Below, piece by piece: positions 29,344 through 37,535 of a DNA stretch of 64,000 nucleotides; positions within the stretch are counted from its first letter, which is position 1; every line of letters starts with the position of its first letter. The position numbers were made by a program, and so were the translations under genes. The stretch spans positions 65,112 to 129,111 of the forward strand of contig NZ_QUEM01000003.1 in the NCBI RefSeq assembly GCF_003477995.1, written 5' to 3'. The notes beneath the pieces were generated by a model, which ran no database searches, was not told where the DNA came from, and saw only the letters and a list, made by a program, of their open reading frames with translations. Source of the stretch: Bacteroides sp. OF04-15BH. GTDB lineage: Bacteria; Bacteroidota; Bacteroidia; Bacteroidales; Bacteroidaceae.

Positions 29344-30258
29344 ATGCTTATATCTGTAGTTATCCCCCTATACAATAAAAAGAAAAGTATACTCCGTACT
29401 GTATCTTGCGTGCTGCAACAAACATACAAGGATTTCGAGATCATCCTGGTGGACGATGGTTCTACGGACGGCAGTTTGGAGTGTCTGGAGTCTATAACTG
29501 ACCCAAGACTGAAACGGTACAGAAAAAAGAATACAGGAGTATCTGATACCAGAAACAAAGGAATGGAATGGGCATCAGGAGAAGTCATCGCTTTTCTGGA
29601 CGGCGATGATCTTTGGGATCCGTTCTATCTGGAAAGATTACATGATATGGTGGCTTCCTATCCCGACTGCGGTCTGTATATGCAGGACAGCATGGACATA
29701 CCCGCACAGGAGGCCAATCAGGCAAAAGGAACTGAAGAACATAAGGAAATCAAGAAATTCAATAATTGGGAACACTATTTCTATTATCGCAATTTCAAGA
29801 CATCTGCCCTGGCCGTAAATAAAGCTAAAGCCATAGAATTGCAAGGCTTTGACCAGTCTCTTACGATTGGAGAAGATTTGGATTTCTGGTTCCGGCTTAT
29901 CCTGTCTTATCCGGTTTGCTTCCTGGATGAGATTCATGTCTTTATCCTAAAATATGAAGAGGAATATCACAGCAGGTTTGTTCCTAAAGACTTCAGCAAA
30001 CACTTTTCTTACAAACTGGTCTTTAAAAAGGATTTATACTTAAATTTAAAGGACAACAAGGATGTTCACTTTATCATGAACAAAATCATCTTCTATGCCT
30101 TGCTTGGATTTGATAAAGATAAAAACACGGAAGCAGTAAGAATTCTTTCAAAGAATTTATCTTTTGGGCGTTTGAACTGGAAAGATAAAATCAAATATAT
30201 CTTGCATCAATGTACGGTGCACAGAACGAAATGTTCCATAGCTAAACGTGTTGCTTAA
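29344..30258 (+). CDS. Family 2 glycosyltransferase
   Basis: A 304-aa GT-A enzyme. Motifs are LISVVIPLYNKKKSILRTV, ILVDDGSTDGSLE, NKGMEWASGEVIAFLDGDDLWDP (DXD-type) and IGEDLDFWFRLILSYP (catalytic ED). It pairs with the upstream pyruvyl transferase-like gene. It is the last host gene before the prophage, so its 3' end could be native or altered at the insertion point; the frame closes cleanly at 30256-30258. Confidence 0.9.
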   Translation: MLISVVIPLYNKKKSILRTVSCVLQQTYKDFEIILVDDGSTDGSLECLESITDPRLKRYRKKNTGVSDTRNKGMEWASGEVIAFLDGDDLWDPFYLERLHDMVASYPDCGLYMQDSMDIPAQEANQAKGTEEHKEIKKFNNWEHYFYYRNFKTSALAVNKAKAIELQGFDQSLTIGEDLDFWFRLILSYPVCFLDEIHVFILKYEEEYHSRFVPKDFSKHFSYKLVFKKDLYLNLKDNKDVHFIMNKIIFYALLGFDKDKNTEAVRILSKNLSFGRLNWKDKIKYILHQCTVHRTKCSIAKRVA

Positions 30259-30415
30259 CGATGTAAGGTGCTGAAACATAGAGCTATGCCCTTGAAATAT
30301 GTGGCGCATTGGCACAAAAACAAAATGTTACATCAGACGACATTGATACTACATAATAAAGGCTTTATACGTGCATTTACATGGCTTGATGTTACATATT
30401 AAGCAAAAGACCCTG

Positions 30416-30461
30416 AAAACGGCTTAGAATCGCTTAAAATAAGGCATTCTAAGCCGTTTTT
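30416..30461 (+). terminator. Hairpin terminator after the GT2 gene / at the prophage left end
   Basis: AAAACGGCTTAGAAT (30416-30430) pairs perfectly with ATTCTAAGCCGTTTT (30446-30460) around a 15-base loop, followed by TATT. It could end the host glycan island or shield the prophage from outside transcription. Confidence 0.75.
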
Positions 30462-30546
30462 ATTATCCAATTAAAGGCCGTTTAAATATCCTTTATCGCC
30501 TTTGATTCCGTAAGGTTGAAGTGTTAAAAAATAAAAGGAAAATACA

Positions 30547-30625
30547 ACACCCATGAGGAATACCCATGCAACACCCATTCGCCGTTAAAAACAAATTGTT
30601 CCTAACACCCATGCAACACCCATTC
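30547..30625. repeat. Direct repeats near the prophage left end
   Basis: An identical 19-base unit, ACCCATGCAACACCCATTC, occurs at 30562-30580 and 30607-30625 (45-base period). A shorter related unit ACACCCATG lies at 30547-30555. The units themselves contain two CACCCAT-like halves. They might be transposase or regulator binding sites; no function can be assigned. Confidence 0.8.
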
Positions 30626-30782
30626 AATTTGCGTTTATTTTTGCTTTGAGTTATGGCGTATAAGGTATAAAATATAGGCTTAAATAATGGTTTTGCGGTT
30701 GAGTTCTGGGGTATAATACACCTCGTTTTCATTGAGATTTATATTATATAGTTGATTATTAGGAGATTATGGTTGTTTTATG

Positions 30783-30790
30783 TATCTTTG
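30783..30790 (+). promoter_or_regulatory. Candidate -7 element for the tRNA-like gene
   Basis: TATCTTTG matches TAnnTTTG exactly, 22 bases before the first base of the tRNA-like fold. TTAG at 30759-30762 is a weak -33 with 20-base spacing. It suggests transcription of the tRNA-like RNA, and possibly the downstream 167-aa gene, in the lysogen. Confidence 0.55.
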
Positions 30791-30812
30791 TGAAGATTCA
30801 CAGCCAAAAGGT

Positions 30813-30893
30813 GGCGATATAGCACAGTTGGTAGTGCAAACAGTATGGAAGACAACATCTGTTGTGTCTCTGGTTCGAGTCCAGATATCGCCC
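30813..30893 (+). ncRNA. tRNA-like RNA with enlarged anticodon loop
   Basis: The cloverleaf is nearly canonical. The 7-bp acceptor is GGCGATA/TATCGCC, and the D arm is GCAC/GTGC with loop AGTTGGTA. The anticodon stem is AACAG/CTGTT, the variable loop is 5 nt (GTGTC), and the T arm is TCTGG/CCAGA with loop TTCGAGT. The anticodon loop, however, has 15 nt instead of 7 and no U33-anticodon-purine pattern. Part of it (ATG/CAT) can extend the stem, leaving an 8-nt loop. The 3' tail reads CCAA, with no proper CCA after the discriminator. It should not decode and is better called tRNA-like. Alternatives are a degraded tRNA gene or a decoy/regulatory RNA. Confidence 0.7.
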
Positions 30894-30936
30894 CAATCCT
30901 TTACTTGTTTTTATAGGTATTAGCTTCGTTATGAAC

Positions 30937-30959
30937 GCTCCCGGTGAGAGTCCGGGAGC
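30937..30959 (+). terminator. Hairpin between the tRNA-like gene and the downstream ORF
   Basis: GCTCCCGG (30937-30944) pairs perfectly with CCGGGAGC (30952-30959) around a 7-base loop, followed by an AT-rich but not T-only tract. It could end the tRNA-like transcript or regulate the ORF that starts 17 bases later. Confidence 0.55.
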
Positions 30960-30976
30960 TTAATTTAAATTACTCT

Positions 30977-31480
30977 ATGGGAATTATTCGTACTATTTTG
31001 AACAATTATAGGGATATCTACATATATGAACGAGCAATGCGCGAAATAGTGCTTGCTTTGGAAGGTTTTCCTATAAGCACAATTAAATTCGGTATAGAAA
31101 ATTATGATGAAGCTCTTCGACTTGCAACCACATTAAGTAGAAAGGTTGTAGAACTTGAAAAAGAACTGGAGGAATTGCGCAAGGGAAATATTACTGATAC
31201 GAAAAAGAGCACCCCCAATTATAAGGGCCCAAGTACTCCTGTTGCTGACTATATAAATTTTGCTACTTTAATCGCCAATAAAGAAGAAGAGAGAGCAAAC
31301 CATATCAACCATATCAGTAAGCTGGTACGTGAGTTTGGCCAAGAAGCCGTTGCAGATAAAATCTCCTGGATGATGTCGGATATTTTGCGGGCATACCCTA
31401 AGTCAAAGAATATAGATACGGCTGTTGAGCTCTTAGGAGCTATAAGGCTTGAAATCATTAATGGAGTTTATTCAAAATAG
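30977..31480 (+). CDS. Prophage accessory protein of unknown function
   Basis: A 167-aa soluble, helical protein with no family I recognise. A coiled-coil segment (TLSRKVVELEKELEELRKGN) lies near residues 50-72, then a polar linker, then a helical C-terminus (KLVREFGQEAVADKISWMM). The start was moved to the ATG at 30977; the longer frame begins inside a hairpin. It lies next to the repressor in the opposite orientation and outside the lytic operons, a typical place for a gene expressed in the lysogen such as exclusion or defence. That role is inference. Confidence 0.6.
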   Translation: MGIIRTILNNYRDIYIYERAMREIVLALEGFPISTIKFGIENYDEALRLATTLSRKVVELEKELEELRKGNITDTKKSTPNYKGPSTPVADYINFATLIANKEEERANHINHISKLVREFGQEAVADKISWMMSDILRAYPKSKNIDTAVELLGAIRLEIINGVYSK

Positions 31481-31510
31481 GAGGATCGTTTCAAACGACC
31501 CTCCTATTTT
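31474..31510. terminator. Bidirectional terminator between accessory gene and repressor
   Basis: AAAATAGGAGG and CCTCCTATTTT form perfect 11-base arms around the loop, with an inner TCGTTT/AAACGA pairing. It sits between converging genes. Confidence 0.85.
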
Positions 31511-31540
31511 AGTTTTTACTTATATAGTATTATTTTATTG

Positions 31541-32203
31541 TTATTCCAACCGTATTACTCCAATAACCAAAGCCACATGATAAATCCTGTTTATTGGTAA
31601 TTCAAATGGCTCGTAGTGTTCATTATCCGATACGATAAGGACGTGTTCTTTGTCGGAGCCGGGTTTTACCCGTTTGATAAGCGGGCCCTGATCCGTATCC
31701 AATACATATACTTTATTCCATTGAAAAAAGAGATCGTCCATAGGCAAACGCTTGCAGGCCACAATGTCACCGCTGTTGTATCTGGGATACATGCTGCTGC
31801 CTTTAACGCTGATCAGGAATTCGGCTCCTTTGAATGTAGGAACGACAAAGCGCTCACATTCGGATTCCAGTACCGTTTGTTCGCCCGTGAAAGATCCAGC
31901 CATAGCACTGATGGGAATCAAAGGAATGCCCTCTGTGGGTGAATCTGAAGGATGAGCAACCGGTAAATTTTCCTGTTCAGTTTCTGTATGGAGCATGTTG
32001 CCTTTACCGGTTAAAAGCCAATTAATATTTAAGTCTTTATATTTTGCTAATATCTTAGCAATAATAACATCTGTAATCGTCGCTTTAAGTTTATCTGAAT
32101 CCAAAAGCCCTCTTTTAATTTCTAAATCGCTATAAAACTGCGGTTTAGAAATGTTTTTGTATTCGATATATTGTAAAAGTCTTTCTTTTGTTGTCATTGT
32201 CAT
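31541..32203 (-). CDS. Prophage repressor, HTH plus S24 (LexA/CI-like) peptidase
   Basis: A 220-aa repressor. An N-terminal HTH region (about 1-68; ISKPQFYSDLEIKRGLLDSD, INWLLTGKGNML) precedes an S24 domain. The self-cleavage site is A102-G103 (ISAMAGSF), the nucleophile S137 (KGSSMYPRYNSGDIVACK) and the general base K177 (PLIKRVKPG). By family knowledge, RecA filaments trigger cleavage, so the lysogen should be inducible by DNA damage, unlike Mu with its non-cleaved repressor. It diverges from the early operon and shares paired operator sites with it. Confidence 0.9.
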   Translation of the reverse strand: MTMTTKERLLQYIEYKNISKPQFYSDLEIKRGLLDSDKLKATITDVIIAKILAKYKDLNINWLLTGKGNMLHTETEQENLPVAHPSDSPTEGIPLIPISAMAGSFTGEQTVLESECERFVVPTFKGAEFLISVKGSSMYPRYNSGDIVACKRLPMDDLFFQWNKVYVLDTDQGPLIKRVKPGSDKEHVLIVSDNEHYEPFELPINRIYHVALVIGVIRLE

Positions 32204-33306: not shown

Positions 33307-35460
33307 ATGGCTGTAATCTATAACAATCAGGTTTGTGTCTTCGCAAATGAATTGATTGCCTATAACAAAAAGAGCGGAGTTGGTACAGACAGCGGTTTTC
33401 TTCCGGAAGGAACGTACTATTCCAAGGTTACACGTGGTCTTATCATGATAGCCCGCCGAAGTACTCCCAAATCTTCTGCTCTTGTTTATTTCGATACAAT
33501 GGAAGAATACATCAAACAGCAATACATCAAGATTTACGGTGATCCTCACGAAGCTTTTGACGCGCTCCCCAAACAAAGTCTGTTGGAACGCGAACTGGAG
33601 TATAACGAAGAAGCCTATTCCTTTTTTACGGAATATACCGACTGTGGAGGCAAGAAACTGAAACCCGAAAAGGCTTCGCTCTACACGCTTCAGGCCCGCA
33701 TTCTGGAGGCGGTGCTTCGGCTTTGGCATGAAAACCGTATCCGTATAGGCTCCGGTCAGATGCGCGTCAATGTGTGGGATACACTGAGCCGTATGGTGAA
33801 TGATCTGCTTGAGGTGCGGAACAGTCGCGGCGAGCAACGCTATCCGCACAAACTGCCCTCTACGGGAAAGACTCTCCAACGCAAGGCACTGCAATATGAA
33901 CGTGAGGGGTATGAATCTCTGGTCAATAAGAATCATGGCAATATCTCGACGCGTAAACTGAAGGATGAGGAGTGTGAGGCTGTCATGCACAAGCTGCTAA
34001 GTCAGCATATGAATCTGAATAATGTTCAGATTATGGAGCAATACAACATGATCATAACTGAGATAAACCGATGCAATGCAGTAGATGGAAGCAAGAAGCC
34101 GTTGCCTCTGATCAAAAGTCCTGCTACGGTGGAGGCTTACCGCAAAGCAATGGAGTCTACGACACTGGGACACCGAAGAGGCGGAAACGCATGGAAAAAC
34201 AAGTATGAAATGCAGATGAAACGCACCGCCCCGGAAACGGCCATGACCTATTGGACACTGGACGGATGGGATGTGGAACTGGTATACGAAAAGAAGGTTA
34301 CGCGTGAAAAGGTTGTTGACGGGGAGATAAAACGCACGGTCAACACCACCTATTCCAACCGCAAATGTATGGTTGTGGTGCTCGACGCATGCTGCAAGTA
34401 TCCGGTGGGCTATGCCATTGGCGACCATGAAAGCCCTGCGCTGATACGCCTGGCTTTACGGAATGCCGTAAAGCACGCCGCAGATCTGTTCGGAGCCCGA
34501 TATAAGCCGATGCAGTTGCAAAGCGACAATTACCAGCGCAAAATCATGGTGCCTTTTTACGAAGGAATGACGCATGTGTATACACCCGCCGCTTTGGGAA
34601 ATGCCAAGTCCAAAATCATAGAGCCTTATTTCAATCACATCAACAAGACTTATTGCCAGATGCTTCCCAACTGGAGCGGAGTGAATATCAACGCCAAACG
34701 CGACTCGCAACCGAACATTGAGATTCTGAACAAGAACCGCCGTCTGATTCCGTCTGAGGATGTTGTGCTACAACAGATACACAGTATTATGGCCAAAGAA
34801 CGGGATTTGAAACGTGACGCTTATCTGAAAGCCTGGGCCAATACACCGGGAGATAGGAGGCTGCCGTTCGGGGATGAGGAATACCTGTATCTGATGGGAG
34901 ATACGACCGGACGCACCAACCGTCTTACAGGGCAAGGATTGCTGATGGAACTGATGGGACAGCGGCTTAATTTCGAGTCCTTCAACCCGGATCTGCGCAA
35001 TCACTATAATGAGGACTGGGTGGTGCACTACGATCCGGAAGATTTGTCACAAGTGCTTATCTGCAACGCGGAAGCTACAACCGGCCACCGGGTGAAAAAG
35101 GAAATCGGAACTCTGCGGTTCTGCATGCACCGTGACACCAGCGTGCCGATGGCACTTATAGATCAGGAAGACGAACATTTTGAGCACCGCCGGAAAGTCC
35201 GGGAGTTCAACCAATCGTTGGAACAACATTATATCGAGCGACAGAGTCAGGTAGACGAAACCTTGCAGAGTATGGTATCACGTTATCCTCAACTGAAAAG
35301 CAACACGCTGCTCGACCGTGCGCTGATTACCGATATTCACGGGCAGCATAAAGACCGACGTTCCGAAGCAAGGGACGATATTCAGGACGCGGTTGTCGTG
35401 GAAGAGGTTTCTGATGATGATTATGAATGGAACCCCACAGACATGAGATTTTCAAGATAG
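33307..35460 (+). CDS. MuA-like DDE transposase
   Basis: A 717-aa transposase that cuts and joins phage ends for integration and replicative transposition. The catalytic core follows the MuA pattern. First Asp D319 is in LDGWDVEL, the strand motif is VVLDACCKYPVGYAIG, second Asp D407 is in QLQSDNYQ, and the Glu E439 is in KSKIIEPYFNHI. The N-terminal half is helical DNA-binding sequence, and a charged C-terminal tail (DDIQDAVVVEEVSDDDYEW) probably contacts the MuB-like partner encoded 29 bases downstream. It is the strongest marker of the element type. Confidence 0.95.
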   Translation: MAVIYNNQVCVFANELIAYNKKSGVGTDSGFLPEGTYYSKVTRGLIMIARRSTPKSSALVYFDTMEEYIKQQYIKIYGDPHEAFDALPKQSLLERELEYNEEAYSFFTEYTDCGGKKLKPEKASLYTLQARILEAVLRLWHENRIRIGSGQMRVNVWDTLSRMVNDLLEVRNSRGEQRYPHKLPSTGKTLQRKALQYEREGYESLVNKNHGNISTRKLKDEECEAVMHKLLSQHMNLNNVQIMEQYNMIITEINRCNAVDGSKKPLPLIKSPATVEAYRKAMESTTLGHRRGGNAWKNKYEMQMKRTAPETAMTYWTLDGWDVELVYEKKVTREKVVDGEIKRTVNTTYSNRKCMVVVLDACCKYPVGYAIGDHESPALIRLALRNAVKHAADLFGARYKPMQLQSDNYQRKIMVPFYEGMTHVYTPAALGNAKSKIIEPYFNHINKTYCQMLPNWSGVNINAKRDSQPNIEILNKNRRLIPSEDVVLQQIHSIMAKERDLKRDAYLKAWANTPGDRRLPFGDEEYLYLMGDTTGRTNRLTGQGLLMELMGQRLNFESFNPDLRNHYNEDWVVHYDPEDLSQVLICNAEATTGHRVKKEIGTLRFCMHRDTSVPMALIDQEDEHFEHRRKVREFNQSLEQHYIERQSQVDETLQSMVSRYPQLKSNTLLDRALITDIHGQHKDRRSEARDDIQDAVVVEEVSDDDYEWNPTDMRFSR

Positions 35461-35489: not shown

Positions 35490-36413
35490 ATGGATAAACA
35501 AGCTCTCAAACAGTATATCGAAAATTTGATCCTTCGTGGCAGTTCTGCCGCAGAACTGGCCCGCCGCTGTGGTATATCCGTGGCTTCCATGAGCCAGTTC
35601 CGTACTGGTAAATACGCCGCCAGTGATGATGTCATGGCCGAAAAAATTGCCACAGGCCTTTATTTCTTTGAGAATTCCCGTAATGTGGTAGACACGGTAA
35701 CCAGTTACCGACAGGTAAAGACTGCCTTTGTAGCGGCCCGTAGCAAAAACAAATGGTATTGCATCAGCAGTCGTTCCGGAAGTGGCAAGACCCAAAGTCT
35801 GATTGACTTGTATAATGTATGTGGAGACAGTTCGGTGGTTTATCTGAAGTGCCGGAAATGGTCCAGCCACAAATTCCTGCTCAAACTGGCTACGGCCATG
35901 GGTGAGAATGTGAACCGGTATATGGATAATGACACTTTGCTCGATATATGTGCCGCTCACATGAACCTCATGGCAGACCGTCATCCGATTCTGCTTATTG
36001 ATGATGCCGGAAAGCTGACTCATTCGGCCATGAACTGCCTGATACCGCTTTATGATGATACTTTAGGTCGTATGGGATGTCTGGTGGCCGGAACCGAAAC
36101 CTTGGAGAGAAACATCAAACGCTATGTGGGTCGTATTGAAGGTTACGATGAGATAGACGGACGGTTCGGACGAAATTATATCACGTTGTTAGGAGCCACA
36201 AAGAAAGATGTCATATCCATTTGCATGGCGAACGGCATCACGGACAAAGAAACGGCAGAAGCAATCTGGGGCAAGCTTCCAAAAATAAAGAAGCAGCCTA
36301 ATCCCGATGATCCCCGCTCTGTGTGGTTCTCTGATGATCTGCGCGAACTGGCAAGTATGATTGATGATGTGGTGATTCGTCAGGAACTCAGTAAAGGAGA
36401 GATGAAGGTATGA
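35490..36413 (+). CDS. MuB-like AAA ATPase (transposition activator)
   Basis: A 307-aa ATP-dependent DNA-binding protein that selects targets and activates the transposase. The N-terminal HTH (SSAAELARRCGISVASMSQF, about 18-37) is as in MuB. The AAA core has Walker A SRSGSGKTQS (K100), Walker B PILLIDDAGK (D171) and a downstream sensor region (GCLVAGTETLERN). The start codon is embedded in 11-nt repeat-like leader sequence. It overlaps the next gene by 4 bases. Confidence 0.9.
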   Translation: MDKQALKQYIENLILRGSSAAELARRCGISVASMSQFRTGKYAASDDVMAEKIATGLYFFENSRNVVDTVTSYRQVKTAFVAARSKNKWYCISSRSGSGKTQSLIDLYNVCGDSSVVYLKCRKWSSHKFLLKLATAMGENVNRYMDNDTLLDICAAHMNLMADRHPILLIDDAGKLTHSAMNCLIPLYDDTLGRMGCLVAGTETLERNIKRYVGRIEGYDEIDGRFGRNYITLLGATKKDVISICMANGITDKETAEAIWGKLPKIKKQPNPDDPRSVWFSDDLRELASMIDDVVIRQELSKGEMKV

Positions 36414-37508: not shown

Positions 37509-37535
37509 AATAATAACCTATAAAAACATACCGAT

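Follow-up and report, generated by a model that had tools for sequence, protein, structure and literature searches.

The window, that is, the whole 64-kb stretch of DNA that was analysed, contains at positions 30813 to 30893 (+ strand) an element that is certainly tRNA-like. It is part of a Mu-like transposable phage in a Bacteroidales host and is located close to the conserved left end of this phage. We give roughly even odds (a probability of about 0.5) to the reading that this element represents a recurring type from the left/early region of Bacteroidota Mu-like transposable phages, namely a phage-encoded, non-decoding tRNA-like RNA that is recognised by host tRNA-processing enzymes and acts as a cleavage module where it lies in operons and as a free small RNA in the window. 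A functional non-coding component is more likely than a defunct tRNA gene.

Structure and genomic setting of the element

The element was found by direct reading, with the Rfam model RF00005, with ARAGORN in intron mode, by folding, with a scanner in which the acceptor, D and T arms are fixed and the anticodon segment is free, and with a model of other elements (R2, see below). It comprises an acceptor stem (30813-30819/30886-30892), a D arm (30822-30837), a modified anticodon arm (30839-30863) with a 15-nt loop (30844-30858), a variable loop (30864-30868) and a T arm (30869-30885), all on the + strand. Its letters are GGCGATA TA GCAC AGTTGGTA GTGC A AACAG up to the loop and CTGTT GTGTC TCTGG TTCGAGT CCAGA TATCGCC C after it. 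The intact cloverleaf stems that had been proposed from the letters were recovered by the scanner (7/7 acceptor, 4/4 D and 5/5 T pairs formed), with a 5-bp anticodon stem on direct reading, and RF00005, applied to this stretch by itself, scored 49.2 bits, exceeding its gathering score of 29. Standard tools miss such RNAs: neither a gathering-threshold Rfam scan nor default ARAGORN, each applied to the whole 64-kb window, found the element. The predicted fold was a cloverleaf (-27.2 kcal/mol, z -3.2) and none of 200 shuffles was as stable; with four more flanking bases the z-score was -2.6 and 1 of 200 shuffles was as stable. The element has the cloverleaf with acceptor, D and T arms of a decoding tRNA, but neither a 7-nt anticodon loop with U33 nor an anticodon. 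The sequence-only reading had described the 15-nt loop as abnormal and without U33, which direct reading bore out, and had suggested an RNA that does not decode, which agrees both with the missing U33/anticodon layout and with the unusual anticodon arms of relatives. It had also expected ATG and CAT within the loop to lengthen the stem; the predicted arm indeed consists of 5 bp, a bulged U, these 3 bp and an 8-nt loop. The acceptor strand is followed by C and then by CAA, so that no CCA is encoded at the normal place.

The phage was recognised as Mu-like by the flanking genes, which encode a CI-like repressor with an S24 peptidase domain (31541..32203, - strand; PF00717, phrog_4), a MuA-like transposase (33307..35460, + strand; phrog_310, 4.9e-35) and a MuB-like DNA transposition protein (35490..36413, + strand; phrog_296). 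Its conserved left end, identified by alignment with two related sequences (L054 and L008), is marked by five ACCCAT direct repeats (30546..30623, + strand), which are perhaps MuA-binding end sites. The last four copies have the same 11-34-11 spacing in L053 and L054, and the ACCCAT array at 30549-30618 aligns with the left end of MT835523. As the element lies about 190 bp to the right of this array, it belongs to the phage and not to the host, whose genes to the left of the phage include rny, 77% identical to the copy in a Bacteroidales genome. The right end of the phage was not found within the window. A search of GTDB with the glycosyltransferase for an empty insertion site returned only 29 distant relatives (27-45% identity), so that the insertion site could not be compared. 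Within the phage, the element is located 2.4 kb upstream of MuA and to the left of the repressor gene, neither directly before MuA nor in the early operon, unlike the operonic place of its counterparts in other phages. Between the element and the repressor gene, an open reading frame of 167-178 aa (30977..31480, + strand; listed from a GTG at 30944) matched no Pfam or PHROG family, and a search of IMG/VR for close relatives of the 178-aa product gave no confirmed relative.

Direct reading placed TATCTTTG, which we take to be a possible Bacteroidota -7 element, at 30783..30790 (+ strand), 22 nt upstream of the element. The position given for it in the sequence-only reading was therefore correct, but its value as promoter evidence was not upheld: TANNTTTG occurs 48 times in the window versus 48.6 expected, so that the motif alone is no evidence of a promoter. 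Downstream, an 8-bp G+C-rich hairpin with a T/A-rich tail (30937..30959, + strand) is a possible terminator of the tRNA-like RNA; terminator-like sites in 30250-31600 numbered 4, compared with 0.9 expected from shuffling. On direct reading, the armless relative described next (L055) likewise has a hairpin after its element.

Occurrence in related phages and conservation of the stems

The scanner found tRNA-like elements upstream of MuA in many related phages, and its chance rate was low (3 poor matches in 5.8 Mb of block-shuffled sequence). L055, whose MuA is 59% identical, has an element without any anticodon arm, in which the D and T stems are 8 nt apart and the acceptor stem is perfect. Its T arm ends 2454 nt upstream of MuA, compared with 2421 nt in the window; no repressor gene is annotated there. 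ARAGORN (default and intron modes) and Rfam in 'evalue' mode, run on L095 from the same contig, missed this armless element. All six Hankyphage-type records examined carry an element (L047, L049, L237, L243, L244, L246), which in the five annotated records sits between two early genes that are 118-119 nt apart. Likewise, the element is present in all seven P. gingivalis Mu-like phages examined, drawn from 10 Porphyromonas records, and in each of them a distance of 15-17 nt separates its end from the MuA ATG. In none of the annotated stretches examined from Hankyphage and P. gingivalis phages does the annotation list a tRNA at this place. In two of the latter, L238 (BK068089) and L247 (BK068094), the annotated transposase start falls inside the tRNA-like element, probably through misannotation of the start codon. 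In another, L241 (BK068093; 3407-3526), the D-to-T-stem segment measures 70 nt, versus 21 nt in the others, and reads by eye as a 7-bp base stem with further hairpins.

In IMG/VR, 80 Hankyphage-type MuA loci were kept of 265 found; 76 of them offer more than 300 nt of upstream sequence, and 14 of these 76 have a strict element 419-1562 nt before MuA, in all 14 cases non-canonical and on the MuA strand. A model that included the window element (R1) additionally matched L297, L268, L269 and L319 at 416-426 nt before MuA (28.7-29.6 bits) and, more weakly, L267, L298, L265 and L270 (11.0-16.6 bits, E 0.03-2.9); it gave weak partial matches about 24-27 nt before MuA in L057, L204 and L235 (13-15 bits). 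A perfect T arm 21-26 nt before MuA was seen in L046, L292, L293, L294, L315, L324 and the P. gingivalis phage L048. Among Bacteroidales genomes, two convincing elements (L215, L217) were found in 37 stretches upstream of MuA, which were examined out of 45 MuA places and some of which are shortened by contig ends. Taken over all 91 MuA loci for which 250 nt or more of upstream sequence was available, a count that includes near-identical phages, a perfect T arm occurs on the MuA strand within 3 kb upstream in 36, the window included, and on the opposite strand in none; shuffling predicts 0.1. As early genes lie mostly on the MuA strand, orientation alone is a weak point. A weak match in L231 was judged spurious, its acceptor having only two Watson-Crick pairs. 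Counted separately from the elements were an ordinary tRNA in L281 and canonical CAT tRNAs in two Bacteroidales genomes (L200, 1115-1186(-); L211, 2472-2543(-)); the latter two lie upstream of MuA on its strand and resemble initiator tRNAs, with a 1-72 mismatch.

The presence of the element among Mu-like phages is patchy. The strict upstream T arm is missing in 55 of the 91 loci, and a relaxed scan of these 55 recovered none, while R1 gave weak matches in a few of them (e.g. L298, L309, L291). No element was found in the stretch covered of L050/L051, the nearest MuA relatives examined (64%), nor by the scanner in the first 4 kb of Winogradskyella phage Peternella, in Elizabethkingia phage TCUEAP3 or in MT835523, nor in the first 4 kb of phage Mu or the first 6 kb of D3112. 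A DNA search with the element returned none of 393 Bacteroidales genomes, an empty answer which in this search proves nothing. In element-free relatives, the gap at the matching early gene is 2-16 nt in several and long in others; at the early-operon junction, element-free loci range from overlap to more than 1 kb, partly through crude ORF calling.

To follow base-pair changes, 13 elements including that of the window were aligned, leaving out L055 and L215, which MAFFT misplaced in a wider alignment, and the P. gingivalis elements, whose arms differ in length. Pairing in the acceptor, D and T stems was complete (100% of cells), with changes on both sides in 11 of their 16 pairs. The whole structure was 95.1% paired, compared with 80% in shuffles and 30-51% in slid controls; the three arm pairs tested were paired in only 69% of cells. 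Four of five covariation measures were reached by none of 500 shuffles, and the fifth, further pair types, by 19 of 500. The tertiary (Levitt) pair 15-48, which the scanner does not demand, was complementary in all 22 deduplicated elements (14 G-C, 8 A-U), compared with 75 of 87 canonical tRNAs; P. gingivalis phages account for seven of the eight A-U pairs, so that these are not independent events. U8, A14, GG and TTC[AG]A were demanded by the scanner and thus prove nothing. In the same 22 elements, the segment from D to T stem varies from 8 to 70 nt, versus 22-24 nt in most canonical tRNAs. The window element itself combines intact acceptor, D and T stems, the 15-48 pair and a non-canonical anticodon segment with a place in the left/early region of a Mu-like phage, on the MuA strand. 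Sequence comparison shows that compensatory changes preserve the acceptor stem, the T arm and the D-loop/T-loop elbow, and that the anticodon arm is freely replaced or deleted; in the shortest forms the D stem is apparently free as well. The earlier argument that the kept stems speak against simple decay gained from related phages, which have conserved, covarying stems together with unusual anticodon arms, as the sequence-only reading had proposed to check; the long loop as such, however, is not a conserved feature.

Single-sequence folding gave a cloverleaf for the window element, L237 and L271, and acceptor, D and T stems for L055; for L240 the top prediction has no proper D arm, and L248 does not fold into a cloverleaf. 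The z-scores ranged from -4.1 (L237) to -0.8 (L046), with L055, L240, L271 and L046 only 0.8-2.0 sd below shuffles, and folding alone is not decisive. In a control with a D-arm/T-arm pattern, at least 115 of at least 121 matches in 120 viral stretches had the normal 26-nt gap; among the six longer-gap matches listed, three were on MuA-locus contigs (L248, L249, L290) and one (L468) was a Hankyphage-type sequence.

The model R1 scored the window element at 75 bits, which is circular because that element was part of it. R2, made as a test from 12 other elements without the window, ranked it first among 42 matches from 15 sources, at 54.4 bits; ordinary tRNAs reached up to 52.6 bits, which indicates kinship with tRNAs rather than a separate family. 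Shared descent with the Hankyphage elements is instead suggested by place, arm type and the positional match with L055.

Proposed processing by host enzymes and competing explanations

In the reading that we favour, the RNA would be transcribed with the left-end or early transcript, would fold as a tRNA elbow plus acceptor helix, and would then be recognised by host tRNA-maturation enzymes, with RNase P acting at the 5' end and RNase Z or exonucleases at the 3' end. The elbow and the acceptor helix are the main parts that these enzymes require. Passages of PMC11143913 describe that bacterial RNase P, which pairs with R73-C74-C75, cleaves model substrates built from an acceptor stem plus the T stem and T loop. 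Among the 22 elements, C74 is present in 22, a purine at 73 in 20 and C75 in none. A trailing N-C-A also occurs in host tRNA genes (2 of 3 in L021), so that the ends of the elements simply resemble host tRNA gene ends. Where an element lies between early genes or immediately in front of MuA, cleavage would separate the mRNAs and define the 5' end of the transposase mRNA; the filling of the 118-119-nt early-gene gap by the Hankyphage element, together with the kept acceptor, T arm and elbow, favours such a processing module. In the window and in L055, where the elements lie 2.4 kb before MuA, cutting next to the transposase gene cannot be the role. With a terminator-like hairpin after the element and MuA not adjoining, the product in the window would be a stable tRNA-shaped small RNA.

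The main rival to the processing module is a trans-acting decoy, in which the free RNA, unfit for use in translation, binds and occupies a tRNA-binding host or defence factor, possibly a toxin, nuclease or nucleotidyltransferase that acts on the acceptor or elbow. We regard it as unlikely, though well worth weighing: the non-decoding arm, the apparently standalone layout in the window and L055, and the varied early-region positions and patchy presence, as expected of an accessory counter-defence gene, all fit it, but the fixed place of the P. gingivalis elements just before the MuA ATG suggests a role in cis there. Moreover, anticodon nucleases would find nothing to attack in the relative that has lost the whole anticodon arm, which weakens the specific proposal of an anticodon-nuclease decoy made in the sequence-only reading. 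Overall, that reading stood as far as a non-decoding, non-decaying RNA with conserved relatives is concerned; the functions that it proposed, an anticodon-nuclease decoy, a lysogeny-state regulatory RNA or a priming RNA, are candidates.

An RNase P-processed immunity or antisense RNA, whose replaced arm would pair with a target mRNA as in the C4 RNA of phage P1, is improbable. The element adjoins the repressor gene and direct reading shows an exposed loop, but none of the 7 matches (up to 3 mismatches) placed the complement of the loop on the + (sense) strand of the window, the longest complementary run in 30500-64000 was 13 with G-U allowed, and the armless L055 has no loop to pair. The loop as antisense to the phage sense strand was thus rejected, as the search of the window found no target. 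In the sense orientation, the loop (30844-30858) resembles other window sequences, with 7 matches at up to 3 mismatches, itself included, versus 2.3 expected; this number was reached by 1 of 100 shuffles and probably reflects codon usage (e.g. a start ATGGAAGA near 37535).

Decay of a tRNA gene captured by the phage is very unlikely: the missing decoding arm and the many relatives without an element would agree with a pseudogene, but the perfect stems, their covariation and the recurrence in the same region of elements with non-canonical arms (14 of 76 loci, all 14 on the MuA strand) do not. Even less credible is an ordinary tRNA whose anticodon loop contains an intron or a sequencing error. 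ARAGORN with introns did fit a tRNA-Pro(tgg) with an 8-nt 'intron', its single match in 64 kb at default score, but position 33 of this forced anticodon loop is A and not U, no removal of 8 contiguous nt from the loop yields U33 on direct reading, L248 has the same segment length (31 nt), and L055 has no arm at all. Many prophages integrate at tRNA genes; a remnant of an attachment site in a host tRNA gene can nevertheless be practically discounted here, as the phage encodes the transposition proteins MuA and MuB, and relatives repeatedly carry whole cloverleaves at internal positions.

Relation to known tRNA-like RNAs and similar elements in other phages

The element shares with phage tRNA genes (RF00005) the cloverleaf, the 7-bp acceptor, the D and T arms, the tertiary elbow pair and an Rfam score above gathering. 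In contrast to them, it lacks a usable anticodon arm, which is replaced or deleted, and it lies beside MuA or the repressor gene rather than in a tRNA cluster. The C4 immunity RNA of phages P1/P7 is a small phage RNA near immunity functions that is thought to be cut by RNase P. Unlike C4 RNA, the element has a true tRNA elbow, and no C4-type complementarity of its loop and arm region to phage mRNA was found in the window, outside of which the right end of the phage lies. Bacterial Y RNAs (YrlA) contain a tRNA-like module as a case of non-decoding tRNA mimicry; the window element differs in being closed by a plain acceptor stem, and Rfam searches of the window and of the element gave no match to the Y-RNA family. 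Nematode and mite mitochondrial tRNAs with missing arms are described in parts of PMC7609411 as still bound by tRNA enzymes; these have lost the D or T arm and kept the anticodon, whereas the phage elements have lost the anticodon arm and kept the T arm. No description of RNAs of the present kind was found in the open-access literature, judged by titles and abstract openings. In sections of PMC10367356, tRNA is mentioned only as an insertion site, with examples of P. gingivalis prophages that use tRNA genes in this way.

More tentatively, and at somewhat less than even odds, Bacteroidota transposable phages, and perhaps many temperate phages, may use a widespread, undescribed class of RNA, an anticodon-stripped module of elbow plus acceptor that is placed at an early-operon junction or expressed alone and that would tie transposase expression or defence evasion to host tRNA processing. 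If the elements work, phages of common gut and oral bacteria re-use the tRNA body beyond translation. When IMG/VR was searched for tRNA-like patterns in which the anticodon segment is shortened, 106 stretches matched. Of the 107 matches obtained with L055 included, 81 have a core of 40-45 nt and none a core below 40 nt, though the pattern allowed 28; by our count, ordinary tRNAs of that layout would have about 55. Near-identical copies of an element of Lactococcus P335-group phages account for 21 of the 107. The armless elements of this group and of Polaribacter phage Danklef resemble that of the window in keeping the acceptor, D and T arms, with the anticodon arm missing or tiny; in contrast to the window phage, these phages are not known as Mu-like, and we note the resemblance without claiming homology.

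Several further observations concern these other phages. Many viral contigs from IMG/VR (L062-L167) contain tRNA-like elements in which the anticodon arm is cut out and the acceptor, D and T stems are intact, with a linker often ending in GGGTC. Two related viral tRNA-like elements (L443, 386-503(-); L449, 6065-6183(-)) have a D-to-T-stem segment of 69-70 nt. In Danklef, the element is annotated as tRNA-OTHER with an undetermined anticodon and lies 13 nt before the next gene. The P335-group element measures 61 nt with almost no anticodon arm (L065, 2960-3020; L198, L199 and Lactococcus records) and is located near the genome end in bIL286 and ahead of a cro/cI-like gene in P335, and a 77-nt relative of it in phage D6890 is annotated as tRNA-Met.
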